Shown: one piece after another, positions 876 to 59,254 of the stretch
Layout of the letters: every line of letters begins with the position of its first letter
Numbering within the stretch: the stretch's first letter is position 1
Notes under the pieces: model-generated
Database searches by the model: none
The model's input: the letters and a program-made list of their open reading frames with translations, nothing else
What the model was told of the DNA's origin: nothing
Assembly (NCBI RefSeq): GCF_001274875.1
Contig: NZ_CP010899.1
Location: 1,302,001-1,366,000 of the forward strand
Length of the DNA: 64,000 nt
From: Spiroplasma kunkelii CR2-3x
Lineage (GTDB): Bacteria > Bacillota_I > Bacilli_A > Mycoplasmatales > Mycoplasmataceae
Reading direction: 5' to 3'
Program-made: the position numbers and the translations under genes

Positions 876-1014
876 AAAATATAAAATAGTAAAAATTGGC
901 ACACTTAAAAATACTATTAACAAGTTTAATAAAGGAAATATAAAATTAAAATTAATAAATCAAATTACATAACTAGTGTGCCACAGATAAGTTATTCATC
1001 TTGTTATATTAAAA
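876..1014. other. Plectrovirus intergenic stretch
   Basis: I see no reading frame. An 8-base inverted repeat (GGCACACT at 898-905, AGTGTGCC at 975-982) encloses about 70 bases. It may be part of the phage intergenic region; nothing further can be supported. Confidence 0.3.
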
Positions 1015-1260
1015 TTATTTAATTTTACTAAAAAAGATTTTTAAATACCCAGTCTCTCAATCAATATATATCTTTGAATTTTCTAAGCGTTCATAAAATA
1101 AAATTGCTTTTTTATTTGTATATTTAATTTGATTTAACAAACTCTTATGTTTTTCACAAGTTCATAAAAATTTATTTGTTTCAAATTTTTCAGTAATAAA
1201 TGATATTGCTTGAAAACAATTATTAACATCACATATTTTTTGTTGTTTAATAATTTTCAT
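1015..1260 (-). CDS. Plectrovirus-associated protein, 81 aa, unknown
   Basis: A complete frame from ATG 1260 to TAA with two UGA-Trp codons. It is basic, with cysteines at residues 10, 15 and 35 (for example ICDVNNC and LWTCEKH) that could bind metal. It begins 15 bases after the 38-residue CxxC protein and shares its strand, so the two are probably co-transcribed. I do not recognise a family. Confidence 0.55.
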
Positions 1261-1275
1261 TTTTATAAATTAAAT

Positions 1276-1392
1276 TTAATACTGAGTATAATAAACATCA
1301 TCAAATCATTCTGTTTTTTCGCGATGATTAACTTTATGAAACTGTTTTGGTATTCCACATTTACTGCATTTAATAACAATATTTTTTTCCAT
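1276..1392 (-). CDS. Small CxxCG zinc-knuckle protein of plectrovirus type
   Basis: 38 codons. The sequence contains IKCSKCG (residues 7-13) followed by His-19 and His-23, a plausible Cys2/His2 metal site, then an acidic-aromatic tail. A near-identical protein is encoded at 43044-43160 beside other phage genes; conservation between two distant copies argues that this short frame is real. Read-through of one UGA (Trp-29) is needed. Function unknown. Confidence 0.65.
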
Positions 1393-1449
1393 TTTTAGTT
1401 TCTCCAATCTAATATTTAACTATTGATTTATTAATATAACTAAGTGAAA

Positions 1450-1590
1450 CAGAACAAGGACAACACCTTTACTAAGTTAGTGGACAAATTATTTATTAAT
1501 TTCTTAATTTAATATGGTTTTTTCAGAAAGGAAACAACTTTTTTATTATTTTAAAAATTATAAATATATAAAGATGTTGTCCTTGTTCTG
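1450..1590. repeat. MITE-like element, 22-bp inverted ends
   Basis: Arms 1450-1471 and 1569-1590 match at 21 of 22 bases and start with CAGAACAAGGACAACA. The 97 bases between them have no frame, only an RBS-like CAGAAAGGAAA. No clear target duplication is visible. It could be an internally deleted insertion sequence. Confidence 0.55.
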
Positions 1591-1669
1591 AATCAATTAG
1601 TTATTTTAGGTTTTTTCAAATAAAAAAAACCATTTTTGTAAATGGTTTAATTATTCTTATTTAATTTCT

Positions 1670-2055
1670 TTATATATACCCTACTTTTTTTTTATGCGAC
1701 CAAATCTTTTTTATTTCAGCTTCATGCATTACAAGATTATTTCAAAGTCGGAAATTATGGTTTTGAATTTTATATTGCTTAATGTTTTTAGGAATTTTAT
1801 TAGTTTTTATTTTACCGCAAAATTGAATTAATATGATTGCACCAGTCATATTCGTTATTACAACAATTGGTAAATTTAAAGTTACTGTTGCAAAAGGATT
1901 AGTTCGATAAAAATAAATCTCATTAAAACTTAAATATCATAATGAATTTGTTGAAACACCAAAGCCAAAAGTAATCGTACAAATAATCGTATTGATGTTT
2001 GTTAAAAATTTTAATAATAGTGAATTAACATTCCATTATATTATTTTTTGAATAA
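1670..2055 (-). pseudogene. Decayed membrane protein fragment
   Basis: On the minus strand an open stretch of about 125 codons has no start codon and is cut off upstream by stops, while a neighbouring frame carries a short leader with an ATG. The readable part holds a hydrophobic segment (FATVTLNLPIVVITNMTGAI) followed by a basic, polar tail. It looks like the C-terminal end of a membrane protein whose front has been lost. The family is not recognisable. Confidence 0.4.
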
Positions 2056-2142
2056 TCACTATTATCAGTTATATATCCTAACATAAGTAAAATTGTTAAA
2101 ACGATACAAAAATAAATTATCTAAATTATTCATAATTTTATC

Positions 2143-2574
2143 CTAAAGGTTATTAAGTTTTTCAACACGAAGCGCATGACGACCAGCATCAAAAGTACTA
2201 TTTAAAAACATATCAACAATTCAAATTGCATTTTGATTTGCAATAATTCTAGCACCCAATGCCAAAACATTAGCATTATTATGTTCGCGCGCTAATTTTG
2301 CTAGCATTGTTTCATTGCACAATGCTGCTCTAATTCCTTTTACTTTATTTGCCGCAATTGAAATTCCAATTCCTGTTCCACAAATTATAATTCCAATACT
2401 ATTTTTTTCTTTAATTACGCGTTCACCAACAGCTTGACCAATATCAGGATAATCAACTACCTCAATACTATCTATACCTAAATTAATAATTTCATATTTT
2501 TGTGCAATTAAATGTTTAACAATTGCATTTTTCATTTCAATACCTATATGATCATTCCCAATCACAATTTTCAT
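2143..2574 (-). CDS. rpiB: Ribose-5-phosphate isomerase B
   Basis: This enzyme interconverts ribose 5-phosphate and ribulose 5-phosphate in the non-oxidative pentose phosphate pathway. The 143-residue product starts MKIVIGNDHIG and carries the RpiB/LacAB hallmark CGTGIG with the catalytic Cys-65. The C-terminus is completed through one UGA-Trp and ends in the usual RHALRVEKL-type tail. An AAAGGAGAAC ribosome site precedes the ATG. LacA/LacB are close relatives, but a single gene without lac neighbours favours RpiB. Confidence 0.9.
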
Positions 2575-2636
2575 TCTTATTGTTCTCCTTTTCCTACAAT
2601 TTAACTATAACATACTGGTTTTTTAAATAAAAAAAA

Positions 2637-2924
2637 TTAATTCCTTGTAATAATATCCAATAATTTTTCAGGACTCATTGGCGTTACTGTTACAATTAGT
2701 TTTGTCTTTTTTGCAACTACAACATATAAATTACCTTTTAAATCATGGAATTTAATATATAAATTTTTTGTTGTCTCAATTCGATCAGAAGAATTATCAA
2801 TAATTTTAATAATTTTTTCTTTAATAATTAAATCATTTTCATTTTTAAAAGCAGGAATTAGTTCTCAAATTCGTTGCAAACAATGAAAAGAAAACCCTAA
2901 ACGGTGTTAATAATAATATCCCAT
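2637..2924 (-). pseudogene. Small conserved-type protein, probably frameshifted
   Basis: About 80 codons are open on the minus strand, ending in a lysine-rich, beta-strand-like C-terminus (residues like LYVVVAKKTKLIVTVTP). The only good start (ATG 2924, MGYYY) is out of frame and separated by a stop, so one small indel seems to have split the gene. It lies between rpiB and rpsT. No function recognised; a sequencing error is an alternative to real decay. Confidence 0.45.
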
Positions 2925-3006
2925 TTCTATATGCACCTACTTTACAATTATTATACAGATATATTTAAAAAAATAATGATAAAATATTAAAAAAGTAGTA
3001 CTTTCC

Positions 3007-3035
3007 TTTACACTTTTTTATCTATTTGCTATAAT
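3007..3035 (+). promoter_or_regulatory. Promoter of rpsT
   Basis: A TTTACA -35 box (3007-3012) and a consensus TATAAT -10 box (3030-3035) are 17 bases apart, ending 35 bases before the rpsT start. This is the cleanest sigma-A promoter in the window. Confidence 0.85.
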
Positions 3036-3070
3036 CTTTTTGTGTCTTAAAAGTCGAAAGGAGAGCAAAA

Positions 3071-3322
3071 ATGGCTAATATTAAATCACAAATTAAAAGA
3101 ATTAAAACAAATTCAAAAGCTAATTTAGCAAATAAATCTTTTAAATCATCAGTAAAAACAGCAATCAAAAAAGCAGAAATCGCTATTAACGCACAAGAAG
3201 CAAACGCATCACAATTAGTTAATACTGCAATTAGTTTAGTTGACAAAGCAGTTACTAAAGGAATTTATCATGCTAATAAAGCTGCTCGTGTTAAAAGCAG
3301 ATTAATGCTTAAAACACATTAA
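3071..3322 (+). CDS. rpsT: 30S ribosomal protein S20
   Basis: S20 binds 16S rRNA early in assembly of the small subunit. The 83-residue product starts MANIKSQIKRIKTNSKA and ends with ARVKSRLMLK, the family pattern of basic helices with conserved N-terminal IKR and C-terminal KSRL. Length is typical. The AAAGGAG ribosome site lies 8 bases before the ATG. It is the only plus-strand housekeeping gene in this part, has its own promoter and a terminator, and is monocistronic. Confidence 0.95.
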   Translation: MANIKSQIKRIKTNSKANLANKSFKSSVKTAIKKAEIAINAQEANASQLVNTAISLVDKAVTKGIYHANKAARVKSRLMLKTH

Positions 3323-3365
3323 TTTTAAAATCCTTTTTAACAAAGACAGTAAATATTAAAAAAAT

Positions 3366-3400
3366 AAAAAAAATCATATTAATTATGATTTTTTTTATTT
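3366..3400. terminator. Bidirectional terminator between rpsT and the converging gene
   Basis: An 11-base stem (about AAAAAATCATA with its complement) around a 5-base loop is flanked by A and T runs on both sides, so it can stop transcription from either direction. Confidence 0.7.
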
Positions 3401-4885
3401 ATCTTTTGATTTATTAGAATCATCTTTTTCAAAAACATTATCATCTTTAAACTCATCATCAAATAATGTTGGATCCATTTCATATTTTTGTCCATTCATC
3501 ATTGCAGTAACTACTTTTTGGTATTCTGTATTAGCACGAATTAATTTATTACGGTCTGTTTTAGGAGATAAAACTACTAAAATAATAACCATAATTCCTG
3601 CAAGAAAACCAGAAATCATTGAAATAATTGTAAAAATATGTAATACTTTGTAAGTTGTGCTATTATAAACTTCGCTTACTAAACTATTAATTGTCATAGT
3701 TAAATCTGAATCTGGTAATAATAATAATTCTGTTATTTCTAATTGTGGGTCGTTTTTAACAATATAGCCATTATTAGGTACCGATATACTATTAAAATAT
3801 TTCTCAACAACATTTGGTAATAATATTTGAATTAATGACAATGAAGAATAAAAAAGAATAATGATTGATAATACAACTGGTCAGAATCTAACAACATAAT
3901 TATCGCGTTTAAAACGCTTTTTCACTAATAATTCATAACCCAAGAAAATTCCTGGCAAAATCGATAAAATTCCTGAGAAAGTTTGCAATCCGGCGGACTG
4001 CATTAATAAAAATTTATATTTTGAACCAAAACTAAATACTTCACTAAAATTATTGTTAGCATTATGTAAAGCACTATCAGCACCACCACCAATAATAACA
4101 ATTGCTCTAGTTCGTGGATTTGTATAAACAATTACTTTTGTGTCTAAATAGATATTTAAATAGGAATTTAAAAATCACAATAAAATTAACAAAGCAGAAG
4201 CTAAAATAACAAAAACAGCAACAATTTTTTTTAAAATTGGCATATACTTTGGTTTTGAAGTATAAAAATAAAACCGTGGGTCTAAGCGTGGATGAATTGG
4301 CATATTTACCATTTTCTGCATCATTTGTGATATATCAAATTTACTTGGATCACTAAATTCCGAACTAATGCCACCCATTGACGCTCCTATGTCTCCAATT
4401 CCCCTTGCTGGTCCTACTTCCGGTTGTGATTCGTCTACCCCTTCTTTATTAGCTTTAACTTTTAACTTCTCACGAGCATTATCAATTACTTTTTCATCAG
4501 TAAAATCAGCTGTGGCATCAATTAAATCATTAGTGATGATGTTTTCTCTGGTAATATAATTTTTTTCAACACCAAAATTTGAAACAATATATTTCACAAA
4601 AACAACATATTCTTCATCTAACATATTAAAAGTAGCCCCGTCAACCTTTTCAATTGTTTCTGATTCATTAGTAATATCAACCAAAACTTGAGCAAATGAA
4701 AGAGTAAATTTATTATCATTTAAATTTGCATTAAATTCTTTTTCTAATGTTAATAAATTACAAATTTGTTGAATTACTAATTTTTTAAAGTCCTGGTTAA
4801 CTATTACTTGTGCCTTAATATTATCATCGTTAAAGATATTATATAATGTATAAACTATATAGGCATATAATTTATTTTCTTTCAT
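3395..4885 (-). CDS. Membrane protein of unknown function, 496 aa
   Basis: Two large pieces join into one frame when TGA at 4175-4177 and 3881-3883 are read as Trp. Residues 1-220 are soluble and acidic and include a Gly/Met-rich stretch (RGIGDIGASMGG). A first membrane segment lies near 225-245. A loop or extracellular domain follows, then two segments near 295-350, a second outside region, and a last segment near 425-450 with a charged DDSNKSKDK tail. I do not recognise a family. It is probably co-transcribed with holA, which ends 35 bases upstream. Confidence 0.8.
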
Positions 4886-13783: not shown

Positions 13784-13826
13784 ATTTTACATTTTGTAAT
13801 CAAAGTGCAAAACATTAAATATAACA

Positions 13827-14300
13827 ATGTTTATTAAACAAATATTTAGTTATGATATGATAAAATTGATTAATTTTGTTAAGAAAAATCAGAATGTAGA
13901 AAATTATTTTATTAGTAAGGAATTTATTCCTTTTACAACAGATAAAGCAAGTTTTATTAATTTACCCAATCATAATCGTCATATCGGGGTTTGATTGAGT
14001 AATAAGTTTATTTATCAGATTGAAAAATATTCAGAACAAGTAGCAATCGGTTTGATTTATAATAATTCTTATCCTATTATAAAGTATGATGAAAATTTAA
14101 AGCGAAATATTTGAAAATATTTAACTGGAACAGTCTTAATCAATTTATATAATCAATATAAACAAAATTATTTTATACAAATGAAAAAAGTATTATTTTC
14201 AAGTTAACATCAAAAAGTAAAAACAAATAATAATAATTTAATAAATTAAAGTGATGAAAAAGTACAACAATTAATTAATGACTTAGAAAGTTTAAATTAA
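13827..14300 (+). pseudogene. Plectrovirus protein, homologue of the 1-393 gene, two internal stops
   Basis: The frame from ATG 13827 gives 126 residues and then TAA at 14205. It stays in the same frame past a second TAA (14253-14255) to a natural end at 14300 (TAA 14298-14300), giving the full 158-codon length. Sequence up to the first stop closely follows the partial gene at the left edge. The start lies on a leftover end of the 81-bp repeat unit. This is the first gene of a plus-strand plectrovirus block running to 18404. Confidence 0.7.
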
Positions 14301-14452
14301 ATGAGTTTATATGATTATTGAGTTCAATTTGTTAGTTAAATTATTGGTGCAAATGCGCCCCTGAGTTTTTATATGTTATATCGTTTGTGTTATTTATTGT
14401 TTTGTTTTTTGGAATGTTTTTTAAACTTATTCAAAAAATGTGGAGTTTTTAA
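14301..14452 (+). pseudogene. Decayed plectrovirus small membrane protein
   Basis: This matches the intact 62-residue gene at 54900-55088 (shared FLYVISFVLFIVLFFGMFFKL at DNA level). Here an internal TAA and a 2-base insertion near 14355 (AAATGCGCCCC instead of AAATGTCCC) destroy the frame. Confidence 0.6.
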
Positions 14453-14454
14453 AA

Positions 14455-14658
14455 ATGCAAAATGATTGAATTAAATTAAAAGAGTTTTTTATTCATTTCT
14501 TTTTGTTTATAGATAAAACAAATGTTGAAACTATTACAACTTGAAATTTAACTCAAAATGAATATTTAACTTTAATGGTTGGTATTTGAATTGTTATTTT
14601 GTTATTAACTTGGTTTTTCTTGTGAATGGTTTTTAAGATAGTTAGGTATTTTAAATAA
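14455..14658 (+). CDS. Plectrovirus membrane protein, 67 aa
   Basis: A complete frame starting MQNDWIKLKEFF with five UGA-Trp codons. A single strong membrane segment (about residues 38-60, LMVGIWIVILLLTWFFLW) is followed by a short basic tail. The stop overlaps the next ATG (TAATG). A copy at 55091 has the same N-terminus but is cut short by a deletion. It is probably a virion or assembly membrane protein, by size and position. Confidence 0.65.
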
Positions 14659-15501
14659 TGAAAAAGTTTATATTTTTCTTTAAAAACTATTGTTATATTA
14701 GTGGTTCAATGATTTTGTATAGTTTGGTTAATTTATTATTTTGGATAATTTCTTTGTACTGTGTTGGTTTAGTATTTTGAATATTATTTGCTTTACAATA
14801 TGTTTATTTTGTGTGATGATTATGAAAAAATATTTTTTATCAGTTAAATACTTTTTGTTTAGTTCAGTTTATTTGAGATAATATGTTATCAGTTATTATT
14901 CGAAAGTTAGGTACCGGTAAAACATTACTTTTAAATTATTTATTGCAAACCATGAAATTATTAACAGATGAAATTTATAGTAATTATCCGTTAGAAGATG
15001 AAAAAGTTAAAGTTTTAACATTTAAAAATTTAGATTTTACCGATGGAACAAAACCAGTCCCACCCGATTATAGTGTTATTTTATTTGATGAAAGTTATTT
15101 GTATATTGATGGAACTAGTCCTCACGATGAGAAAAAAGTTCATAGTGGTAAAATACCGTGAATTGTTTTAGCGAGACATTTTGGTAATCGTGCGTTGTTT
15201 ACTGCTCAGCGTGAGGATATGATTTGAAATAATATTAACCAGTTAGCAAGTGGAATTATTATTCCAATTTCATTGAAAAAACCAGTTATTAAGAAGGGGG
15301 TTTAATTTTTTAACCGTTTCTTTATTATGCGAATTGGAATTTTTCAAGATATTACCGATTATGAAATTTGAAAAAAAATCAGTAGAACAAACAGCATAAG
15401 GTAAACGAGCAAAACATAAGTCGGATGTTGGGTTAGGGATTCGGTTTTTTAAAATAATTATTCCGCTTGAATTTGCTAATAAGTTGATAGTCAATGGTTA
15501 A
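14658..15501 (+). pseudogene. Plectrovirus assembly ATPase (Zot/pI-like), frameshifted
   Basis: Filamentous phages export virions through a membrane ATPase of the Zot/pI family. This frame has two N-terminal hydrophobic segments, then a Walker-A-like RKLGTGKT (residues 82-89) and a Walker B with VILFDESYLYIDG, and a conserved ARHFGNRALFTAQR stretch. It ends early at TAA 15303 (215 aa) because of an extra G in a G5 run at 15296-15300. Dropping one G restores a tail to 15501 with one more stop. The same tail survives as a remnant at 55199. Confidence 0.65.
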
Positions 15502-15506
15502 AATTT

Positions 15507-15668
15507 GTGCTTGATTAAAAAAATGATGAAATTTTTAATAAAAAAGAATATTATTGGTCGGAAATAACAAAATTGAGTGTTAAAGAGCGATTGGAGTTAT
15601 TTGATATTGATATTTTGAAAAAAAATTTAAAACCTAAAAAAGAGAAAAGAAACAAGAAAGATGATTAA
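15507..15668 (+). pseudogene. Decayed copy of a small plectrovirus protein
   Basis: The 54-codon stretch closely follows the intact protein encoded at 55287-55544 (shared KKEYYWSEITKLSVKE), but codon 4 is TAA, so it cannot be made from the usual start. Confidence 0.6.
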
Positions 15669-15975
15669 TTTATTAGATGAAAATAATAATAGTAATTGAG
15701 ACAAGATTTTTAGTATTGTTTTTGATATATTTTTGTTTATTTTTGATGTAATTTGAAATACAAAATTACCGATGACAAATACGTCAATTGCTTATTTTTT
15801 AATATTTTTTATGGTTATTAAATTATCGATTTATGCAATTCACGGGACATCAACACAATATAATAATTTAGGTTTAACAGTTAATAGTGGTGTTTCGCAA
15901 ATATATTATTCAACAGTTCGCGGTGTTTCTGATACTAAACAAAATATGCAAAAACATAATAAAAATCGTAAATAA
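15661..15975 (+). CDS. Plectrovirus membrane protein, 104 aa, probably truncated
   Basis: The frame starts MINLLDENNNSNWDKIF, has a hydrophobic region (about residues 15-65), and ends at TAA 15973. The same frame continues open for another 29 codons with a basic tail (RNKKQLSSLAKQAKTREQ) to a TAA at 16063-16065 that overlaps the next ATG. So the original protein was probably 134 residues and the first stop is a nonsense mutation. Likely a virion membrane protein; exact role unknown. Confidence 0.5.
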
Positions 15976-16064
15976 TTTAAAATTAATCGTAATAAAAAAC
16001 AATTATCAAGTTTAGCAAAACAAGCAAAAACAAGAGAACAAGGATATAGGAGAGTGCATAAATA

Positions 16065-16301
16065 ATGATTAAATTAGTTTTATTGGTGGCAGCAATTGCG
16101 ATATTTGGTACTGATTTTATTACTATTATTATTAATCAATTTACATCAGCAAAAAATATTATTATGGATTTATATAATTCTGATACTTGGTTGATTTGAT
16201 TATTTGGCAGAATGGCAATTTTGTTTAGTCATCCGTTAATGTTAACGATATCGAGTTTATATATTGTTGGGTTTATTGTTTCAAAAACATTGTATAGTTA
16301 G
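16065..16301 (+). CDS. Candidate plectrovirus coat protein, 78 aa
   Basis: Small, with an N-terminal hydrophobic segment (residues 1-25), a short exposed centre (about 26-40) and a second hydrophobic segment to residue 75. Size and hydrophobicity fit the major coat protein of filamentous phages, which is stored in the membrane before assembly, and it lies just before the ORF1-type adsorption protein. The assignment is by size, layout and position, not by sequence recognition. The ATG overlaps the upstream stop. Confidence 0.5.
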
Positions 16302-16312
16302 GAGTTGAATTT

Positions 16313-16542
16313 ATGAAAAAATCGTTATCTTTATTTGCCATATTTATTTTAATTTTTTTAGGTTTGGTTATTACATTGTTACTTTAACGGCGTTTAGACC
16401 GTTAAATGAGAAGCATTATACGCTTAAAAAAGAAAATATTATAGTACTAATAAAGGTATTAATTGACCGCGTAAAATATTCAGTTGATATAAATTTACCA
16501 AAAACTAAGAAAAAGATAGATATAAAATTATATCTTTTTTAA
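16313..16542 (+). pseudogene. Signal-peptide start of plectrovirus ORF1-type protein, frameshifted
   Basis: MKKSLSLFAIFILIFLGLVIT is a classic signal peptide, followed after only 24 codons by TAA. In another frame the reading continues (TAFRPLNEKHYTLKK) to a TAA at 16540-16542 inside a terminator. The exported phage protein therefore begins here but is no longer joined to the rest of ORF1 at 17287-18404. Confidence 0.55.
16509..16541 (+). terminator. Rho-independent-type terminator
   Basis: AAAAGATA at 16511-16518 pairs with TATCTTTT at 16531-16538 and runs into a T tract. Confidence 0.55.
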
Positions 16543-16545
16543 TTA

Positions 16546-16800
16546 TGTTAAAATCGTAGATAACCTTGCTTAGTTTAAAAAAATAACAGCAAAACCAGTC
16601 AAATAAAACTCTCCTACTTGGAATGTAGTAAAACCAAGCAAGCGAGGATAAACAATATAGGGGTGGCCGTACCGCTACGACATAATGCAGGCAATTCTTT
16701 TAGGCAATATAAAAGAGTTATTGTGGTTTGGGGATAAATCTTTAACATGCAATGGTTAAAGGGTAAGTGTTACACAATAAAAAAATTTAGAAATCTTACT
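16546..16800. other. Structured non-coding stretch, relatively G+C rich
   Basis: No frame of any length fits. The base composition is much less A+T rich than around it, with clusters such as GGGGTGGCCGTACCGCTACG and pairable arms (CTTGG near 16617 with CCAAG near 16634). In this setting a phage intergenic or origin-type region, or an RNA leader for the next gene, is plausible. It does not match tmRNA, RNase P or SRP motifs that I can recall. Confidence 0.4.
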
Positions 16801-16821
16801 ATTTGTAAGGAGGATTTGAAA

Positions 16822-17286
16822 GTGTCTTTAAAAGAACTCTGTTGAAAAGAGTTAAAAATTAAATTAATTGTCGACAATGTTGAGCGTTATAAAGAAAATC
16901 GTTATCCAAGAGTTAAGTTAAATGAAAATTATTGAAAACAAGTTATAACACAAGAAAAACCATTTAATAAAGTTGATAATAAGTATTATTTTGTTGTGCG
17001 ACGTGGTGATAAAAATGATGATTGAAAAATTATTAAATTTAACAATAATGAAAAAATTAAAAGATGACATCCAAAAACTTTGGATGTACAAAATAATATT
17101 AAACTTTGCTTAACTAACTATGCAGAAATTCCAATTGATATTGATTTATCAATTGATGCAAGCACAATTAATCGTTGAAAAGATGATATAAAAAATAATT
17201 ATTTTAAAGCAGTTTATCGTTGGGATGGCGTTGGTGAACCAGGAATCCCAACCATTAATAAAAACACTGGTGAGGTTATATTGTAG
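16822..17286 (+). CDS. DUF3688-type phage/lipoprotein-like protein, 154 aa
   Basis: A GTG start with a perfect AAGGAGG site 9 bases upstream. After about 36 unique residues the protein is nearly identical to residues 53-156 of the lipoprotein encoded on the other strand at 18416-18949. The family mark is NYFKAVYRWDGVGEP near the end, shared by spiroplasma lipoproteins and plectrovirus ORF1 proteins. It stops at TAG 17284, but the frame continues open into the ORF1 remainder, so the stop may be recent. It has no signal peptide of its own. Confidence 0.65.
16931..17241 (+). repeat. Left arm of a 311-bp inverted repeat
   Basis: Matches the reverse complement of 18485-18795 at 309 of 311 bases by my reading (differences near 16947 and 17000). 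It lies wholly within the DUF3688-type frame. Confidence 0.9.
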
Positions 17287-18404
17287 CAGAATACTTATCA
17301 ACAAAATTGCGTAAAAAACTTTATTAATTTATTTTTATATGCTTTTTTATCTGAAAATATTATAGTTCAACAAAGTGGTAATGCGGATTATGAAAATCCT
17401 AATAAGGTTGGAACAAAGCGGATAATTTTTGATTTTGAAACGGTTGATGAGTTGGATGTTAAAAATATTAAAAAAGCAATTTATCGGATGATTTTGACTG
17501 TTGATGAATCAAATTTAATTATTTCCGGCAGTTTGGAATTAAATAATATTAATAATTATGATTTAAGTTTTAATTTTAGTTTTATGCAAACGATAACGGG
17601 TGAAGTTTTTAATTTTAATGGTTAAATTTATTCATCATTAAATAGTAAAGGTTTAAAATATTATCAACAATTTAGCGGTCAGTTTGATTTATCTAAGTTT
17701 TTACAGTCGTTTTTTTTGCAAGTGCGTTGGTGCCAGTGTTTCAAAATCGTAGTTCGTTTATTGAAAATTGATATATTGATAATTTACAGTATGATATTGT
17801 TTTAGTTAACTTTTTTGCGTTGAAATTGCAAAATTTTAATAATATTTTGTTGAGTGAAAATATTAACTATAAATTACAATTTGATAAATTATTAAGTAGT
17901 ATGTTTAATATTTCACAGAAATTTTATACTAATTATTTACGCACGATTTTTGATTTAGAAAATAATACTTATGTTCAAGATTATAATAAAAAATATGGTT
18001 TATTAGTAAATAATGGTTTTAAAATTTATCCACGATATTTTTATTTTTCGGATAATGATATGTACCGATATTATAATTTTAATTTTGGTATTTATAACTG
18101 ACAAGAAATTAATAACGGTGGGTTGTTCCCCGATAAACAATGATGACAGGTGCAATATGTAACGCCCGCGGGTTGATGAGATTTTGGTGCTCATATTAAA
18201 AATGCGGTCATTTGAATTGTTAATACTATTCCGGGAATTAAACAAGTTAACGAATTAGCGAGCGGTGTTGGTAACGTTTTTGAAGCAGTATATAGTTTTT
18301 TTAGTGAAATATTTGAAGTATGAAAATTTAATCCTGCATTGTATAGTATAATAAAAAATATATTTTTATTAATTATTTTTATGAAATTTGTGCGATTAAT
18401 ATAA
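17287..18404 (+). pseudogene. Plectrovirus ORF1-type protein, C-terminal two thirds, broken
   Basis: Continues in the frame of the upstream protein after its TAG: QNTYQQNCVKNFINLFLY and so on, with a further TAA at 17622 and a frameshift near 17725. The last stretch is open to TAA 18404 and ends with a membrane anchor (IIKNIFLLIIFMKFVRLI), like the tail of filamentous-phage adsorption proteins. Length and order fit the large ORF1 of SpV1-type phages. It lies inside the inverted-repeat spacer. Confidence 0.6.
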
Positions 18405-18432
18405 AAAAGGAACTGTTATTCAGTTCCTTTTT
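18405..18432. terminator. Bidirectional terminator
   Basis: AAAAGGAACTG pairs with CAGTTCCTTTT around a 5-base loop, with A and T runs outside. It ends ORF1 on the plus strand, and the lipoprotein stop codon lies in its loop on the minus strand. Confidence 0.8.
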
Positions 18433-18949
18433 GTTCTTTTCAATCAATAATTTCACTAGTATTCTTGTTAATAGTTGGTAATTGTGGTTCACCAACGCCA
18501 TCCCAACGATAAACTGCTTTAAAATAATTATTTTTTATATCATCTTTTCAACGATTAATTGTGCTTGCATCAATTGATAAATCAATATCAATTGGAATTT
18601 CTGCATAGTTAGTTAAGCAAAGTTTAATATTATTTTGTACATCCAAAGTTTTTGGATGTCATCTTTTAATTTTTTCATTATTGTTAAATTTAATAATTTT
18701 TCAATCATCATTTTTATCACCACGTCACACAACAAAATAATACTTATTATCAACTTTATTAAATGGTTTTTCTTGTGCTATAACTTGTTTTCAATTACTG
18801 CCTTCTGGTGGTTGTTGTTGATTATCTGGTAGTTCTGGTTTATTATCTTCTTTGTTTTTATTATTATTTTCTTTATTACAACTGATTAATGTTATTGTGC
18901 TTGTTGCTGTTAATTCGATTGCTCCTATTATGCTAAGTCATTTTTTCAT
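18416..18949 (-). CDS. Lipoprotein with DUF3688-type domain, 177 aa
   Basis: Residues 1-24 form a lipoprotein signal with lipobox LISC (Cys-24), so the mature protein is lipid-anchored on the outer face of the membrane. An Asn/Lys/Gln/Pro-rich spacer (25-50) leads to the conserved domain ending in the NYFKAVYRWDGVGEPQLP motif. Several Trp are UGA-encoded. ATG 18949 follows an AAGGAAC site. The domain is almost identical to the phage-side frame at 16822, which suggests recent exchange between a phage gene and a host surface gene. Function unknown. Confidence 0.85.
18485..18795 (-). repeat. Right arm of the 311-bp inverted repeat
   Basis: Reverse complement of 16931-17241, lying inside the lipoprotein gene. 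The spacer between the arms is 1243 bases. Confidence 0.9.
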
Positions 18950-19068
18950 ATATATTGTTCCTTTTTATTGTTTTATATATAATTGATTTTATCATATATT
19001 AATTATATATCAATTATTCGTATTAAATATTAAAAATTTTATAAGTTAATGAAAGGTATATAAATGTT

Positions 19069-20016
19069 ATGTATAGTCATTTAAGTTTTATGGATAAGGT
19101 TAAATTAGAACAATTATTATTATTATTAAAAATTTTTTTAAAAAAGAATGGTAAACAAAATATTTCTGTAATTACTAAATGTTTGAATAGACATCGTAGT
19201 ATTATTTTACGAGAAATTAAAAATTTTAAAAATATTGATGAATATAGTGCTTATAAGTCAGATAAAATGTATTATAAGAAAAGAAAAAACAATAATAAAA
19301 GATGTAAATTTATGGAAGAGCAGATTAATTTTATGAAAATTAGACTTAATAAATATCGTGATTCTCCGAGAGAATTTATTTATCGTTATTTTTTAAAATA
19401 AAACATTGTATAAATGAATTTGTTTGGGTTTTTATGGATTTTTAAAACAAAATTTACGATATCGTGATAAAAAATTTAAAACAAAAGGAAAAAAAGATAA
19501 TCGTGGTAAATTAACTGATTTTAAGTCAATTTGAGATATTGAAAATAAAGTTTCTAACGTTTGATGATTTGAAATGGATACAGTCGTTGGAAAAAACCAC
19601 CTATCTAGTAATTTGGTTTTAGTAGAACAATCAAGTAAAAATTATTTTGTAATGAAATTAAAAAATCATACTGCTAGGGAAGTTGAAAAAAGTTTAAAGA
19701 TATTGTTATAAACAATAATTTAATTGGGAAAATTAAAGGCGTAATAACTGACAGAAAAAAGAATTTAGTGAATGACTATAAATGGAAATATTTGCTGAAA
19801 CACAAGTATATTTTTGTAATGCTGGTAAACCTCGTCAAAAACCTTTAATTGAAAATATAAATGGTGAGTTTAGAAAATTATTTCCTCTTGGAACTGATTT
19901 TAATAATATTAGTCAACAAAAAAATAAATTGAGTAGTTAATAATGTAATAAATGATAAACTCCGGCCATGTTTAAATTGAATAAGTTCTAAAGAAATGTT
20001 TTTGCAAAATATATAA
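19069..20016 (+). pseudogene. IS30-family transposase, decayed
   Basis: The first 110 codons are open and carry the IS30 N-terminal helix-turn-helix (NISVITKCLNRHRSIILREIK). After TAA 19399 the rest can be followed only by changing frame: FEMDTVVGKNH (catalytic Asp), VITDRKKEF (second Asp region), YFCNAGKPRQK and ENINGEFRK (catalytic Glu). The same family occurs as the transposase of SpV1-type phages. The element's right end continues to about 20110. Confidence 0.85.
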
Positions 20017-20028
20017 ACAATAAATATT

Positions 20029-20108
20029 TAAAAATGTATATTAAATTATAAAATATGTAATTAATATATTATTTAATTAATAAAGATTTGTTGTACTTAA
20101 TTTTACAT
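20029..20108 (+). mobile_element. Right end of the IS30-type element
   Basis: The sequence around AATAAAGATTTGTTG followed by TTTTACATAATT recurs at 29320-29363 and, more divergent, at 55935-55976, each time just behind IS30 transposase or its remnants. It is taken as the common right terminus. Confidence 0.55.
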
Positions 20109-20111
20109 AAT

Positions 20112-20933
20112 TTATTTTTTAAAATATTTATTAATTGCTTTTGCTACTCCTGAACGACGATAATGGGCAGTTGTATCATCAGAAATATTTTTAATATCCG
20201 CTTTAGCATTTCCCATCGCAATTCCAACGCCAGCTCATTTTAACATTTCATAATCATTTGAACCATCACCCATCGCAATAATTTCTGATGGTTGAATATT
20301 ATATATTTTAGAAATATATTCTAAAGCATATTTTTTGTCACTATCCTTTGGACTAATTTCTAAATTTAAACTTTGATTTGGCAAATATGACCAATCAAAA
20401 ATATTAAATTCATATTTTACTAAAAGTTTTGCTTTAAATTTTAGAACATTCTCTTTTTTACCACTAACAACAAACTTGTAAGCTTGGTCATGTAAAGTAG
20501 TAGGATCATATACTAATATTCTTTTTCGTTTTGTGTGAAAACTCATTCATTTAGTCATCAAACTATGCTTAGTATTAACATAAGCAAAATGTTTATTCTT
20601 AACGGAATATGATCATAATTGAATTTTACACTTATTAGCAAGATAAAAAACATTTATTAATTCATTATTAGAAAAAAAATTTTGTTGAAGAATTTTTTCT
20701 TTCGCAAAATCATAAATTATGCCACCATTAAAACCAATTACTGGCATTTTATTTTCAATAATGCCTAATTTTTTTGCAACTTTTCTAATAGCACCAATAC
20801 TACGCCCAGTTGCAATAATCACTTTAATCCCATTTGCCAATGCTCACTTAATTGCTGCAACATTTTGCTTTGAAATTCGATTTCTCCTTGCTGTTGTACC
20901 ATCCAAATCAAGAGCAATTAACTTATATTTCAT
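20112..20933 (-). CDS. HAD-family phosphatase, Cof type
   Basis: 273 residues. Motif I LDLDGT (residues about 8-13), motif II with ATGRS, and motif IV GDGSNDYEML near the end mark a Cof-type HAD hydrolase with a C2 cap, which dephosphorylates sugar phosphates or flavin precursors. Substrate cannot be read from sequence. Three UGA-Trp codons. The gene begins 43 bases after metK ends on the same strand and is probably transcribed with it. Confidence 0.9.
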
Positions 20934-41993: not shown

Positions 41994-42023
41994 ATTTTAA
42001 CATAATTATAAAGATAATACCAA
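41994..42023 (-). promoter_or_regulatory. Candidate promoter of upp-atp
   Basis: On the minus strand TTGGTA (42018-42023) and TAAAAT (41994-41999) are 18 bases apart, 28 bases before the upp ATG, with AAGGAGG between. Other AT-rich boxes nearby are possible. Confidence 0.45.
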
Positions 42024-42065
42024 GATTTAATTTGTAATTACTTACATTTTTAAAAATAATTAAAT

Positions 42066-42110
42066 AAAAAGAAATAAATTGAACTTTCAAACTTATTTCT
42101 TTTTTTTTAA
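42066..42110. terminator. Hairpin upstream of upp
   Basis: AGAAATAA and TTATTTCT form a stem followed by a run of nine or more T on the plus strand. It probably ends plus-strand transcription. Confidence 0.5.
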
Positions 42111-42141
42111 TCTTTCATTATTTTCTTATCACTTGTAATGT

Positions 42142-42500
42142 TTAACCTGATTTTATCCTTAGATTAATGTAATTAGAAGAAGAAGGTGATTTTTCTGTAA
42201 TTTCAAAACTATAAAATAATTTTAAGTACAAAAATGCAGTGTTGATATGCATTTAAAGAACTCCCTTCATATAAAAATAACCTGAATATCATTCCTTATT
42301 AATAGTTGTTCTAAAATCATTTTTATTATCTAACATTACCCAATCAAATTCATTCTTAAGTACTTTTAAATCACTTGTAGGAATAAATAGTGCAAAATAA
42401 TTTGGATTATCAATCTTATTATCATTAACTGTTATTTCAAAGTCAGGCAAACAAACGACAGAAAATGTTTTTAACTCTGTAAATTGTAAATGCCAACCTA
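42142..42500 (-). pseudogene. Fragment of an unknown protein
   Basis: An open stretch without start (LKTFSVVCLPDFEITVNDN and on) ends at a TAA after YMKGVL and continues in frame for 35 codons. Alternating hydrophobic and polar residues suggest a beta-rich extracellular domain. Family not recognised. Confidence 0.35.
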
Positions 42501-42559
42501 TAAAAAGTTAACTATTAATTTAATTAACTTTTTTAAGTTAATTATAGGAGGTTAAAATT

Positions 42560-42679
42560 ATGCAAACAAAGCAATATTTTATTTTGCGGTCGCTAGTGAA
42601 AAAGTATGATAAAGATAATGTTATTAATATTGTTAATAAGATTGCAAAAAAAATATTAAAATTAAAAAGTAAAGAATAA
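42560..42679 (+). CDS. Small basic plectrovirus-type protein, 39 aa
   Basis: MQTKQYFILRSLVKKYDKDN and a Lys-rich end, with an AGGAGG site 8 bases before the ATG. It lies among other small phage genes. No UGA. Role unknown. Confidence 0.5.
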   Translation: MQTKQYFILRSLVKKYDKDNVINIVNKIAKKILKLKSKE

Positions 42680-42729
42680 ATTATTCCGCGTAATTTATTA
42701 GCGGATAATTTATTAAATAGTGTTTTTTA

Positions 42730-42816
42730 ATGGAGCAAAGCAATAACGAGCGGAGCGATTTTACAAATTTCAATTTTTTAATTTATGAAAGGGATGTATT
42801 ATGCCAACTTGATTAA
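42730..42816 (+). CDS. Possible 28-aa phage leader-type frame
   Basis: A short frame (MEQSNNERSDFTNF) whose end overlaps the ATG at 42801 of another phage frame (MPTWLTT), which is cut by an IS30 tail. Support is weak: position and strand only. Confidence 0.25.
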   Translation: MEQSNNERSDFTNFNFLIYERDVLCQLD

Positions 42817-42823
42817 CTACAAT

Positions 42824-42950
42824 TAGACCTTGTTTGGGAAATTTTACATCAAGACAATATTTTAAAAAAATTTTTTCAAATTAAATTAATATTTGTGTAT
42901 GATTAATAAAATCTATTTTTTTGTTATATTTAATTTTAAAATATTAAAAA
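42824..42950 (+). mobile_element. IS30 transposase 3' tail inserted in phage DNA
   Basis: The last 20 codons (IRPCLGNFTSRQYFKKIFSN) and following bases match the IS30 copy ending at 55876. They are joined directly to the start of a phage frame, making a hybrid MPTWLTT reading frame. Confidence 0.65.
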
Positions 42951-42975
42951 TGTAGAATAAAGGATGAAGTAGGAC

Positions 42976-43007
42976 AAAAAACCGACCCTTATTGGGTTGG
43001 TTTTTTT
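42976..43007 (+). terminator. Strong terminator
   Basis: AAAAACCGACCC pairs with GGGTTGGTTTTT (G-T pair included) around TTATT and continues in a T run. Confidence 0.8.
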
Positions 43008-43043
43008 ATTTAAAAACAACCATAAAAAGGAGATGAAAAAAAT

Positions 43044-43160
43044 ATGTCTAAAAATACTTTTATTAAATGTAGTAAATGTGGAACACCAAAGCAGTTTCAT
43101 ACAGTTAACCATCGTGAAAAAACAGAATGATTTGAAGATGTTTATTACACTGAATATTAA
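43044..43160 (+). CDS. Small CxxCG zinc-knuckle protein, second copy
   Basis: 38 residues, differing from the 1276-1392 protein at only a few positions (IKCSKCGTPKQFHTVNHREK). AAAAGGAGATG precedes the start. The two copies are on opposite strands about 42 kb apart, each among plectrovirus genes. A DNA- or RNA-binding role is plausible. Confidence 0.7.
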
Positions 43161-43224
43161 AATTTTTTTTTTAAAACCTTAAATTTTATAAAACAACTTT
43201 AAAAATTAAATAATTGGCTCTACA

Positions 43225-43500
43225 AGTGTTTAATTTATAATTACATATTTTTTAGGGAAGGTTCCCCAACAAGGCATTTCCGCCGGAATGAAACCATTAG
43301 AGCTGTTAACTTGTTTTTTGCGATTTTGTAAATTAATGACTTTGATTAAGATAGACGCGTAGTGGTGCATTCATAACTATTAATTGCAAGAAGAAAAATA
43401 AAATCGTGTGCGTAGAGGATAAATAACTTTTAAAAACTGGGCAAGGATTTCTTAATTAATCTACTAGTGGGGACTTATAAGTATTTATATTTTTTCATAA
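43225..43500. other. Structured non-coding stretch in phage DNA
   Basis: No frame. Locally G+C richer with several hairpins: GGGAAGGTTCCC near 43254, and CATTTCCG/CGGAATG near 43280. Between convergent small phage genes; could be the intergenic/origin region of the phage. Confidence 0.4.
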
Positions 43501-43511
43501 TTTAATTCCTC

Positions 43512-43676
43512 CTAATTTTTTCTAGTATTTAATGCTCAATGTTCGTGTATAATTTCATCTTGTCCAAGTGTGTATTTAATCAATCTATTTTGAATTTCTT
43601 CTTCATTTTCTTTATTACATGTAAAGCAATAACCCCAATATCTTTTTTTTAAACAAAGTTTCTTTTTCATATTCAT
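43512..43676 (-). CDS. Small basic protein with CxxC, 54 aa
   Basis: MNMKKKLCLKKRYWGYCFTC has three cysteines in the first 20 residues, then an acidic middle and IIHEHW near the end. AAAAGGAG lies upstream. One UGA-Trp. Probably a phage accessory protein. Confidence 0.5.
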
Positions 43677-43769
43677 TTTTAAATTCTCCTTTTTACAATT
43701 AACTACAAAGTACTACAATGTTCTACATTTTGTAGTTACTTGTAGTATTAAGTACCTCCTCATCAAGTA

Positions 43770-44100
43770 TCAAAAGATAAATTTGGATTTAATACCCAGT
43801 TCTTTTATACATATATTGAAGCAGAGCTTACTGCTAAAAATATATTTTATAGTGAAAAAACTATTATTAATTTAGAAAAAATTGAATGGCAAGGAGAATA
43901 AATAATATGAAAGAAATTAGAAAATTAAAATTATCAGAATTTCAAAAAGAAATTATTAATAAATTAGATGATGCTAGTATCAACTGCTTTAACTGCTTTT
44001 AAAACTTTTGCATTTAACAATTACTTTAAGTGGTACAAATTGATTAACTGAAGAAAGAACAAGAATGCAAATTACAGTTCCTGCTGCAACTAGAAAATAA
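43770..44100 (+). pseudogene. Mosaic of phage gene pieces, partly inverted
   Basis: Four pieces are joined. 43770-43900: the end of a phage frame (YTYIEAELTAKNIF to WQGE). 43908-43975: the start MKEIRKLKLSEFQKEI. 43979-44017: the reverse complement of 60524-60562, 38 of 39 bases. 44025-44100: a copy of the final 25 codons of the 60403-61059 frame (LSGTNWLTEE to TVPAAT). So a second copy of the capsid-type gene once stood here and was rearranged. Confidence 0.65.
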
Positions 44101-53685: not shown

Positions 53686-54429
53686 TGTTTATGTATGAAA
53701 AAGAAAATAAAGTTATTGTAAAAATAACAAATATCAATATAAAACAGATATAATAAAAAATTTAACAGATGCTTTTTTAAGCAAAGCAGATATTAATTTA
53801 GAAATTAAATTTAAAACAGAATTTAGTACTTATCAACAACTACAATATTATTAAAAATATAACAACAAAATTATTGAAAAAAAATATTGAATAATATTTG
53901 TCAACAATACCAATATAATTTAAAACAACTTATTTTATTGTTTTATAATTTTGTTGCTAATATTTGAAATAAAACAAATATCAATGAAATTTTAAAGAAA
54001 ATAGAAATAAAAAATGCGATTGATGGTGATAATAATGTCTTAGGACAAACAAATAATCACCAAACTATTTTGCTAAACAAAAAGGTTTTATCTTGTGCAT
54101 TTGAAAAAAATAAATAGTGAATTACACAAGGGACAATTTACAACCAATAATTTTCTGAATATTTTAATCCATGAATTAGGACATAACTTTTATTTTTATG
54201 ATTGAGAAGAATTTAAAATTAATCATATTTTTTATTTAAAGCAATTTTTAGGACAGAAAATTAATAACTTAAATAAGTTTGTAAAACTAGACAAAGAAAA
54301 AGTGTTAAGGATATTTGCTAACAGTAATATCGATTGAGTGATGATGACGAGTTATTGGCAGAGGGATTTGCATATTGGTTATTAACAAAACAAAGTATGC
54401 AAACAAAAATATGATCATTTTGAAACTAA
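53686..54429 (+). pseudogene. Zincin-type metallopeptidase remnant (HELGH)
   Basis: Starts TTG-TTT-ATG-TAT after AAAAGGAG. Frameshifts and stops near 53750, 53852, 54085 and 54340 split it, but the zinc site ILIHELGHNF (54165-54190) and the late DDDELLAEGFAYWLL, with a plausible third ligand Glu, are intact in the pieces. HExxH with a following EGFAYWL recalls ImmA/IrrE-type or other accessory peptidases. Assignment to one family is not possible. Confidence 0.5.
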
Positions 54430-54482
54430 TACTTTACAAGTTATTTACCACAAATAAAAAATAAAAAAGAAAGGAAGTGTAA

Positions 54483-54877
54483 ATGATGTTAAATGCAATA
54501 ATTGGTATGATGAAAACAATTTCCATAATCCGCTTGTTTGGTTGTTTATAGAAGTTTCTTGGTATTAAATTGCAAAAAATGAAAAAACAAATTCAGTTAA
54601 CGAAATACAAAAAAACTTCTCAAATAATATTATATTTTAGTATATAAGTTGTTTTGTGTTATTTTTGTTAATAATTGGATTGTGAATTGGATTAATATAT
54701 CTAACTTTGAAATAAAATAAAAAAACATTCATATTTTTAATATTTGTTTTTGGAATTAGGAATTATTTAACTGGGATATATTTTTTCTTAACAAATTTAA
54801 TATATTTAATTAAAAATTACAATACGAGTAAATGATTAATTTGATTTGTTATTATGCTAATTAATTTTATATTTTAG
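54483..54877 (+). pseudogene. Decayed membrane protein
   Basis: A start MMLNAIIGMMKTISIIRLF is followed by stops; in other frames hydrophobic segments are readable (FIFLIFVFGIRNYLTGIYFF, WLIWFVIMLINFIF). Probably a two- to four-segment membrane protein linked to the peptidase remnant just upstream. Confidence 0.4.
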
Positions 54878-54899
54878 TAATACAGAAAGGATTTAAAAA

Positions 54900-55088
54900 A
54901 TGAGTTGAAAAAGTTGAACTTATAACAATATTTATATTATTTATAATAACTATTATTGAGTTAAATTTATTAGTTATATTATTGGTGCAAATGTCCCTGA
55001 GTTTTTATATGTTATATCGTTTGTGTTATTTATTGTTTTGTTTTTTGGAATGTTTTTTAAACTTATTCAAAAAATGTGGATTTTTTAA
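54900..55088 (+). CDS. Plectrovirus small membrane protein, intact, 62 aa
   Basis: MSWKSWTYNNIYIIYNNYYW with three UGA-Trp codons leads to one membrane segment (about 36-56, FLYVISFVLFIVLFFGMFF) and a short basic end. AGAAAGGA precedes the ATG. This is the intact form of the broken copy at 14301-14452. Probably a virion or assembly protein. Confidence 0.65.
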
Positions 55089-55090
55089 AT

Positions 55091-55198
55091 ATGCAAAATG
55101 ATTGAATTAAATTAAAAGAGTTTTTTATTCATATATTTTTGTTTATAGATAAAACAAATATTGAAAGTATTACAATGTGAAATTTAACACAAAAATAA
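55091..55198 (+). pseudogene. Truncated plectrovirus membrane protein
   Basis: The first 35 codons match the 67-residue protein at 14455 (MQNDWIKLKEFFIH), then a deletion joins it to the end of the assembly ATPase gene and a stop follows. Confidence 0.6.
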
Positions 55199-55286
55199 GT
55201 CGGATGTTGGATTAGGAATTCGGTTTTTTAAAATAATTATTCCGCTTTAATTTGCCAATAAGTATGATATTTAATGATTAAAATTT
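55199..55286 (+). pseudogene. Remnant of the assembly ATPase C-terminus
   Basis: DNA matching 15417-15505 (coding around KSDVGLGIRFFKIIIP) with extra stops. With the previous entry it defines a deletion of about 850 bases relative to the 14-15 kb copy. Confidence 0.55.
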
Positions 55287-55544
55287 GTGCGTGATTTAAA
55301 AAATGATGAAATTGTTAATAAAAAAGAATATTATTGGTCGGAAATTACAAAATTAAGTGTTAAAGAACAATTGGAGTTATTTGATATTGATATTTTGAAA
55401 AATAATTTAAAACCTAAAAAAAGAAAGGAAATAGTAAAGATGATTAATTTATTAGTTGAAAATAATAATAGTAATTTAGTGAATCATAAATCTAAAATAC
55501 TTTTTTATGATATTTTATTTAGTAAAAGGCAAGTATTGTATTAA
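55287..55544 (+). CDS. Plectrovirus protein, 85 aa, fused to IS30 sequence at its end
   Basis: The GTG start gives a Lys/Glu-rich, soluble protein (KKEYYWSEITKLSVKEQLEL), the intact form of the broken copy at 15507. The last 25 or so residues (NHKSKILFYDILFSKR) differ from the phage frame and lead into the IS30 fragment, so the natural C-terminus was replaced at the insertion. Confidence 0.55.
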   Translation: MRDLKNDEIVNKKEYYWSEITKLSVKEQLELFDIDILKNNLKPKKRKEIVKMINLLVENNNSNLVNHKSKILFYDILFSKRQVLY

Positions 55545-55876
55545 CAATTTTAATTTTAATGAAAATGATTAACAAAATTGGTATTAGCAAATTTAGTTGT
55601 ATTTTAACCGATAGAGGAAAAGAATTTTATAGATGAAAAACAATAAAAAAACATTTTAAAATAAGAATATATTTTTGTGATGCTGGTAAACCTCATCAGA
55701 AAGTATTAGTAGAAAAAATAAATAGAGATATAAGGCGATGATTAGGTCAAAATGAGTCATTAAATAATATTAGTAGTAGATTAAAATCTATTTTAGATGT
55801 ATTAAATACTACAATTATACCTTGTTTGGGAAATTTTACATCAAGACAACATTTTAAAAAAATTTTTTCAAATTAA
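55541..55876 (+). pseudogene. IS30 transposase, C-terminal fragment
   Basis: 112 codons without a start. It has the second catalytic Asp (ILTDRGKEF), YFCDAGKPHQK and the catalytic Glu (VEKINRDIRRW). The same 3' end reappears at 42824. The right terminus follows at 55935-55976. Confidence 0.75.
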
Positions 55877-56119
55877 ATTAATGTTTGTATATTATTAATA
55901 AAATCTATTTTTTTGTTATGTTTAATTTTATAATTTTTTAATTAATAAATATTTTTTTCACTTAATTTTACATAATTCAATATAAAAAGTAATTTAACAA
56001 GAGAACTAAATAAAAAATTTAGTTATTATTCTAATATTGATATTAACATTGATAATTATCAAAGTGGCAAGTATTAAATATTAGAATTTAAAACACCACT
56101 AAATTTTGATAGTGATTAT
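55877..56119. other. IS30 right end and A+T-rich stretch
   Basis: Contains the IS30 terminus to about 55976; after that I see no frame that I can support. Confidence 0.4.
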
Positions 56120-56745
56120 AAGCTCTTTTCCTTCTTTTAGAGCGGCATTAATAACCCCTTCTGGAACTTTAATTGCTTTTGCAACTGGACAGTTATAAAC
56201 TCTTTTCCACTAAATCTTTCCATATCAAGTCTAATATCCGTTGCAGCAATTATTACTTCGGCTTCTTTAATTTCTCCCTCTGTAAAATCATTGCGAACAC
56301 CTTCAACTCGATGTGTTTAAACTTTAATGTCGTATACCATTTTAGGAACAGTTTGGTTTAATTTATCCGCAGCTAAAAGTATGCACTACTCTCCTGTTGC
56401 ACAAGCTGTCTGTCATTGCTAAAAACAACGGCTTTTGACCAGTTGGAGTCGTTTTAGTTGGAACCTCTTCTTTTCCAATCCCAGTTAATAATGCTGCTGA
56501 AATTTTTGCTTTCTCTGTTTCAACTTTCATTGCTTTTTTTTAAAATCTTCATCCATTAATTTTCGTACTACTTCACTTAAAATTCCTAAATTAATTTTTC
56601 GTGATTTAGATTCAGGAATAATTAAAGCAATGGCAACTTTAGTTTGTTTTCTATCCATTGCATTTCAATCAACATCATTTTTAAAACGAATAAATAAAAC
56701 CGTTGCATTTGTAACAGCACTAATTCGTGCATAAGGAATGGTAGT
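56120..56745 (-). pseudogene. fruA: Fructose PTS transporter (EIIA end and EIIB domain), decayed
   Basis: On the minus strand an EIIA-type ending (NATVLFIRFKNDVDW) is followed by a linker and an EIIB domain (ADKLNQTVPKMVYDIKV, NDFTEGEIKEAEVIIAATDIRLDMERF, CPVAKAIKVPE). Frameshifts near 56535 and 56390 and a stop at 56320 break it. The phosphocysteine region (normally ACPTGIAHT) is damaged. The permease part is missing, so this is a fragment of a fructose-specific enzyme II gene. Confidence 0.8.
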
Positions 56746-56831
56746 CGGAAAAAAGTTGAGGTTTTATAAAAATTATAAATAAAGTAATTAAATACAAATT
56801 AAATTAATCGCTTATTAGAGCGTTTTTTTTA

Positions 56832-56996
56832 ATTGCATTATTCATCAGATAGTATCTTTAAAATTAAAAATTAACCCATTTTCTCCATTAATTAGTTAAT
56901 TTTTATAATTTCCTTTCTGTGATTTATTATATTTTTTTGGTTTAACAGCTAATAATATCATTTTTAATAAAGGTACTATCTGATGAATAATGCAAT
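56832..56996. repeat. MITE-like element, 29-bp inverted ends
   Basis: Arms 56832-56860 and 56968-56996 match at 28 of 29 bases (outer end ATTGCATTATTCATCAGATA). The centre (107 bases) has no frame but contains TTTCCTTTCTG, the reverse of an AGAAAGGAAA ribosome site. Like the element at 1450 the arms end inside with CTTTA. No clear target duplication. Confidence 0.6.
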
Positions 56997-57010
56997 ACTA
57001 AAACTTAATA

Positions 57011-57340
57011 TTTTGATGCTTAAAGATGAATAACTCATCTATGACACGAAGCCTTAAAGAAAGTGTGAAAGCGATTGGATTTACCCATATTTATTTTTTT
57101 AATTCTCGGCGGGGTTAGTCGCCCGCGAAATGTCAGAGCGTGTGTTTTTGCTTGTTTCATAAAAAGAGTGCTGTTAAACCGAAAAAAACAATATCGGACA
57201 CTAAAAAACAAGAGGGAGGAGCTCCAAAAGGTTATTTTCTTTATATAAAGTTGTGTAGGGATTGATGAAACGTAATTAATAACTGGGTAAATTGTTTGTT
57301 TATTTCCGTGAGGGGGTAAACTCTATCAAAATAAATAAAA
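57011..57340. other. Structured leader before the capsid-type cluster
   Basis: About 330 bases without a frame and less A+T rich than their surroundings. Pairable blocks include GGCG/CGCC around 57108-57120 and the self-complementary GGAGCTCC near 57218. It precedes the pentapeptide gene by 35 bases and may be a regulatory RNA leader or a phage origin. Confidence 0.4.
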
Positions 57341-57374
57341 AATATTGTGTTTTTTACAGAAAGGAAGATATTTA

Positions 57375-57725: not shown

Positions 57726-57726
57726 T

Positions 57727-58766: not shown

Positions 58767-58778
58767 GAGGAAAAATCA

Positions 58779-59237: not shown

Positions 59238-59254
59238 AAAGAAGGAATAAAATT

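Follow-up and report, generated by a model that had tools for sequence, protein, structure and literature searches.

The window, a 64,000-nucleotide stretch of a Spiroplasma genome (in which UGA encodes tryptophan), carries a degenerate provirus of an SpV1-type plectrovirus, whose features are collected in Table 1. The ORF9 coat protein gene lies upstream of ORF1 and an IS30-type ORF3 downstream of it, an SpV1-type gene order that is collinear with phage R8A2B. This is not a complete functional phage genome: ORF3 is broken and ORF1 is damaged, its N-terminal part having been replaced at about 16438-16860, with a stop codon at 17284, a frameshift near 17716, and a C-terminal deletion. The last piece of ORF1 matches Pfam PF12461 (E 1.3e-106), which places it in the DUF3688 family, as had been predicted for the plus-strand frame. 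The GC skew of the window changes sign at 42000-44000 and at 54000-62000, as it does over the 14-20 kb provirus, and these two regions may be further inserted elements.

Table 1. Features of the provirus and of its inverted repeat (positions in the window)
Feature	Position	Strand	Basis
Degenerate SpV1-type plectrovirus provirus	13810..20121	+	blastn segments in the same order as in R8A2B and SkV1CR23x, 77-94% identity
ORF4 relic (DUF3627)	13827..14207	+	Pfam PF12299, E 5e-15
ORF9 coat protein gene	16065..16301	+	Pfam Plectro_ORF9, E 1e-48
ORF1 (adhesion protein, DUF3688), decayed	16313..18404	+	tblastn of R8A2B, C74 and SkV1 ORF1; blastn
Left arm, hypervariable domain of ORF1	16931..17241	+	309/311 with right arm
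Spacer, 1,243 nt (ORF1 remainder, terminator, lipoprotein 3' end)	17242..18484		
Bidirectional terminator hairpin (AAAAAAGGAACTGTTATTCAGTTCCTTTTT), common to ORF1 and lipoprotein gene	18404..18434		sequence
Phage lipoprotein gene, 177 aa, intact	18416..18949	-	ORF
Right arm, mirrored domain inside lipoprotein	18485..18795	-	309/311 with left arm
Ribosome-binding site of lipoprotein gene (AAAGGAAC)	18957..18964	-	conserved upstream of 64 relatives
Promoter-like TTGATA-N16-TAAAAT of lipoprotein gene	18986..19013	-	upstream block conserved in 64 relatives; promoter reading made by eye
Broken ORF3 (IS30-type transposase) of phage	19069..19711	+	position; 86% identity to R8A2B ORF3 region

When the two arms of the inverted repeat were realigned, 309 of their 311 bases matched, with mismatches at 16948 and 16999, in agreement with the position and length given in the original prediction. 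A looser alignment lengthens the arms to 349 nt (16931-17279 and 18447-18795) at 96% identity, but its last 38 nt hold 11 mismatches and are clearly more diverged. The similarity of the arms is far beyond chance. In a search of the whole genome, the only full-length matches to an arm were itself and its partner, and the next match stood at 73%. The left arm falls within the plus-strand ORF1 remnant and the right arm within the minus-strand lipoprotein ORF, so the predicted pair of convergent genes is indeed present, as is a spacer of about 1.24 kb that contains part of ORF1, a terminator shared by the two genes, and the 3' end of the lipoprotein gene. The terminator hairpin overlaps the last codons of the lipoprotein gene, and a terminator is annotated at the same place in R8A2B. 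The repeat itself is not new, as the GenBank records of phages C74 and SkV1CR23x (SkV1-CR2-3x) already mark it, with arms in ORF1 and downstream. We found no published explanation of its function in a literature search that was thin in subscription papers, the original C74 and SkV1 reports included.

The product of the lipoprotein gene consists of a conserved signal peptide, a lipobox cysteine (Cys24), a linker, and then the mirrored variable block. Cys24 is invariant in 62 relatives, and the signal and lipobox are phage-encoded, being present in free phages and proviruses. A Pfam scan gave no match for this protein, and a search of 46 genomes from the family, with a cut-off of E 1e-10, found no relative beyond the genus Spiroplasma. 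The original prediction took it for a host gene. We instead assign it to the phage, because it is collinear in free phages; it occupies the same place there and in dozens of proviruses. The lipoprotein of a second provirus in the same genome (L045) is that of phage SkV1CR23x. The repeat therefore sits in a phage module that owns both genes and is not a host-phage junction. An intact lipoprotein gene lies beside a broken ORF1 at 21 loci, an observation to which we give no weight in view of how short the gene is. In R8A2B (L033), where ORF1 is at 877-3024, a lipoprotein gene without annotation lies at 3039-3440, before ORF3. Four stand-alone lipoproteins (L115, L116, L117 and L118) carry the domain with no mirrored partner nearby, and the types of their cassettes could be a record of earlier phages. 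On the S. citri plasmids NZ_CP047433 and NZ_CP053308 (H31/H32), the annotation of a gene matching the domain reads "immunity protein YezG family".

We compared 86 ORF1 loci drawn from genomes, plasmids and phages of Spiroplasma. The layout of ORF1 with a convergent lipoprotein gene recurs over these 86 loci, and in 62 of them the inverted repeat measures 150 bp or more (medians: 97.6% identity, 261 bp, and a spacer of 1,381 bp). Proviruses borne on S. citri plasmids have the same order of DUF3688 ORF1, convergent "lipoprotein", and IS30-type ORF3. A scan of viral contigs gave no matches. One locus, L120 (G002:C1:1294000-1313000), holds a 3.2-kb palindrome of 99.1% identity that has the arms as its inner edges; it arose recently, when recombination or template switching took place through the repeat.

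The two copies within an element resemble each other far more closely than copies from different elements do. The lipoprotein domain has a median identity of 95.9% to the ORF1 of its own element, as against 32.3% to the ORF1 of other elements, and its own ORF1 was the best match in 47 of 52 cases. None of 10,000 permutations of own-pair matching reached the observed mean. For elements that carry diverged versions of one type, we also formed quartets, which share elements and are thus not independent; in 26 of 27, the two copies of an element were closer to each other than lipoprotein was to lipoprotein or ORF1 to ORF1. The two copies of one element thus evolve together. We judge the earlier suggestion that duplication or gene-conversion-like homogenisation is involved to be right. 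The pN/pS between the arms is 0.81, which is uninformative at this divergence, and any constraint on the pair would seem weak. There are exceptions to the matching. In R8A2B the ORF1 domain and the lipoprotein differ in type, and provirus L053 encodes the identical lipoprotein; L090 is an intact phage, yet its pair is mismatched too. The C74 lipoprotein gene is frameshifted.

The arms correspond to a particular part of ORF1. In the SpV1 group, ORF1 is conserved at 89% over residues 1-183 and at 94% over residues 263-728, whereas residues 184-262 average 26%. This block is the sole variable part of the protein, and it is the part that forms the arm. The ICTV profile (PMC8295915) gives the name adhesion protein CoaA to g1, the ORF1 counterpart of phage SVTS2. 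Together, the hypervariability of the block and the adhesion label of g1 suggest that the domain has a receptor-binding role. The predicted model of the lipoprotein is fair (pLDDT 73, with much of the domain at 70-94), while that of ORF1 is poor overall (pLDDT 51) and confident at about residues 110-290 only. Fold recognition of the domain with Foldseek (PDB, BFVD) and VIA-align gave no trustworthy match, and a profile search of solved structures gave no significant one, results that should not be read as evidence of a new fold.

The mirrored pair is also present in two types of tailed phage, in both of which a convergent lipoprotein gene follows the gene for the domain-bearing protein. In the first, a tail operon of siphovirus type, with matches to major tail protein (E 6e-44), tape measure (9e-31) and tail protein (2e-19), ends in a 541-aa protein bearing the domain. 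The second is akin to MaM-2019a, with a capsid C-terminal part that is 72% identical, and bears the domain within a protein of 730-806 aa. The inverted repeats of the tailed phages have 93-100% identity, and the best match was the element's own partner in 14 of 15 cases. In the MaM-2019a phages themselves (L119, L140 and L141), a lipoprotein gene is found near 10 kb and the tail-like gene has no mirrored domain; perhaps this lipoprotein excludes other phages. At the DNA level, the cassette in the window is 92% identical to a siphophage lipoprotein gene over 282 bp and about 90% identical to the tail protein gene of the same siphophage, and it belongs with the siphophage cassettes. Cassettes thus move between ssDNA and dsDNA phages. 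At another locus, L105 (G002:C1:642500-648500), an inverted repeat with arms of 2.2 kb (95%) surrounds a tailed-phage lipoprotein pair, much like the plectrovirus palindrome.

What might a phage gain from carrying one domain twice? The best reading, which we consider somewhat probable, is that the decayed provirus keeps a phage module for type-specific superinfection exclusion by receptor blocking. ORF1, on the plus strand, would be the attachment protein. It carries a swappable hypervariable domain, which recurs in a lipoprotein on the opposite strand that would have its own promoter and a lipid anchor. In a phage-carrying cell, the lipoprotein would display the binding domain of the virion on the outer face of the wall-less membrane, where, by occupying or masking the matching receptor, it would shut out further phages of that domain type. 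Receptor binding by the domain, surface expression of the lipoprotein, and the block to infection are each what we infer from the genes as they stand. The arms would be kept alike by gene-conversion-like copying or by repeated re-duplication. We found no RecA match in this genome, which suggests that homogenisation takes place during phage replication and not by host recombination; decay of recA has been reported in relatives (PMC3563533). Strict exclusion would be expected to deplete same-type proviruses within a genome, and we saw no signal of such depletion, possibly owing to copies that arise by transposition. An association between integration of SVTS2 DNA and resistance of S. citri to SVTS2 is cited in PMC8140453; this link is compatible with exclusion but is not a test of it.

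A broader form of this proposal, which we advance tentatively as not quite an even prospect, is that unrelated Spiroplasma phages share one transferable pool of cassettes, with the cassette carried twice in each. Such a mirror-domain system would include the ssDNA plectroviruses, the siphoviruses and the podovirus-like phages, and copying from one arm of the repeat to the other would keep the pair in register. The stand-alone lipoproteins of dead proviruses would then be a host-held record of the phage types excluded.

We weighed several alternatives to receptor blocking. If the lipoprotein copy were a cassette store, donating variants of the ORF1 domain or receiving them by recombination with no blocking involved, then exchange of cassettes between elements, species and phage families would be explained, the mismatched pairs of R8A2B and L090 would resemble one-sided swaps, and L120 attests to recombination through the arms. 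However, a copy that is nearly always identical to its own ORF1 offers no new variant, and a silent donor would not need the signal, lipobox, promoter-like block and ribosome-binding site with which the lipoprotein gene is kept. We regard this alternative as unlikely. We hold a similarly low opinion of the idea that the lipoprotein has some other role, either in virion assembly or release at the membrane or in adhesion to the cells of insects or plants. Plectroviruses leave the cell by extrusion through the membrane, where ORF1 and the lipoprotein would meet, and many stand-alone lipoproteins persist in genomes, but neither role predicts that the hypervariable part should be matched element by element, nor that tailed phages should have the same pairing.

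The repeat could alternatively act as DNA, forming a hairpin or signal for replication, transposition or packaging of the phage genome. In the single-stranded genome of a plectrovirus, the arms could base-pair and leave a loop of 1.4 kb between them. We think this very unlikely, because dsDNA tailed phages bear the same mirrored arms; moreover, from one phage to another the arms differ completely in sequence, and the reading frame is preserved in both arms.

Still less credible is the invertible surface switch of the original prediction, in which recombination between the arms would flip the spacer and fuse the lipoprotein signal to the remainder of ORF1, so joining phage and host genes. The arms are long, inverted and nearly identical, and the palindrome with its arm-edged interior indicates that recombination was possible in one genome. 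Nevertheless, both genes are phage-owned, and all of the loci that retain both ends of ORF1 (about 70) have one orientation, with the inverted spacer alone found in none. A flip in the window would extend the frame by only a few residues, because a stop at 17284-17286 lies just past the arm; the fusion is thus impossible here, and the remainder of ORF1 is also frameshifted. A Pfam scan of nine provirus ORFs revealed no site-specific recombinase, only the IS30-type transposase relic, and the missing RecA match likewise counts against a switch. Recombination through the arms can happen, but it yields a rearranged relic, not a two-state switch. Finally, such repeats are assembly-prone and these arms are nearly identical, but an assembly error or a one-off recent duplication can be set aside with near certainty, since the arrangement recurs in the independently sequenced phages C74 and SkV1CR23x, in S. 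citri plasmids, and in many genomes.

If exclusion by a mirrored domain is correct, exclusion between Spiroplasma phages, and the immunity of cells, would be predictable from sequence alone, since the attachment and exclusion proteins have the domain in common. It would also explain the function of the inverted repeat that two phage records mark, give a use to dozens of unnamed Spiroplasma lipoproteins, and reveal one exclusion design common to filamentous ssDNA and tailed dsDNA phages. ORF1 residues 184-262 would be a candidate location for the plectrovirus receptor-binding site.

Among known phages, the closest in organisation are those of the SpV1 group (Vespertiliovirus), C74, R8A2B and SkV1CR23x, which have the same gene order as the window. 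Their records leave the lipoprotein gene without annotation, and the copy in the window differs in being a relic whose type of cassette also occurs in siphophages. Related strategies are known elsewhere. In retroviral receptor interference, the receptor-binding part of the entry protein (Env, e.g. Fv4) is displayed by the cell and blocks the receptor, but these are viruses of eukaryotes and have no inverted-repeat pairing. In immunity conferred by Ff pIII, the virion adsorption protein made in the infected cell saturates the receptor (PMC7070036). As there, the blocking protein of the Spiroplasma phages would contain the virion's own binding domain (we see the sharing of the domain and infer the binding); the difference is that the Ff adsorption protein itself acts, whereas in Spiroplasma a dedicated lipoprotein copies the variable domain alone. 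MAV1 Vir of Mycoplasma arthritidis is a prophage surface lipoprotein that confers superinfection resistance (PMC7466169). No copy of a virion domain is reported for it, and the likeness is drawn from its description, not its sequence. Phage T5 encodes a small lipoprotein, Llp, which blocks the receptor to which the phage's own RBP binds (PMC9586334), but unlike the Spiroplasma lipoprotein it is periplasmic, acts allosterically on FhuA, and contains no copy of the RBP. Compared with these precedents, what is new in the Spiroplasma phages is a copied, type-matched domain and its pairing through an inverted repeat.
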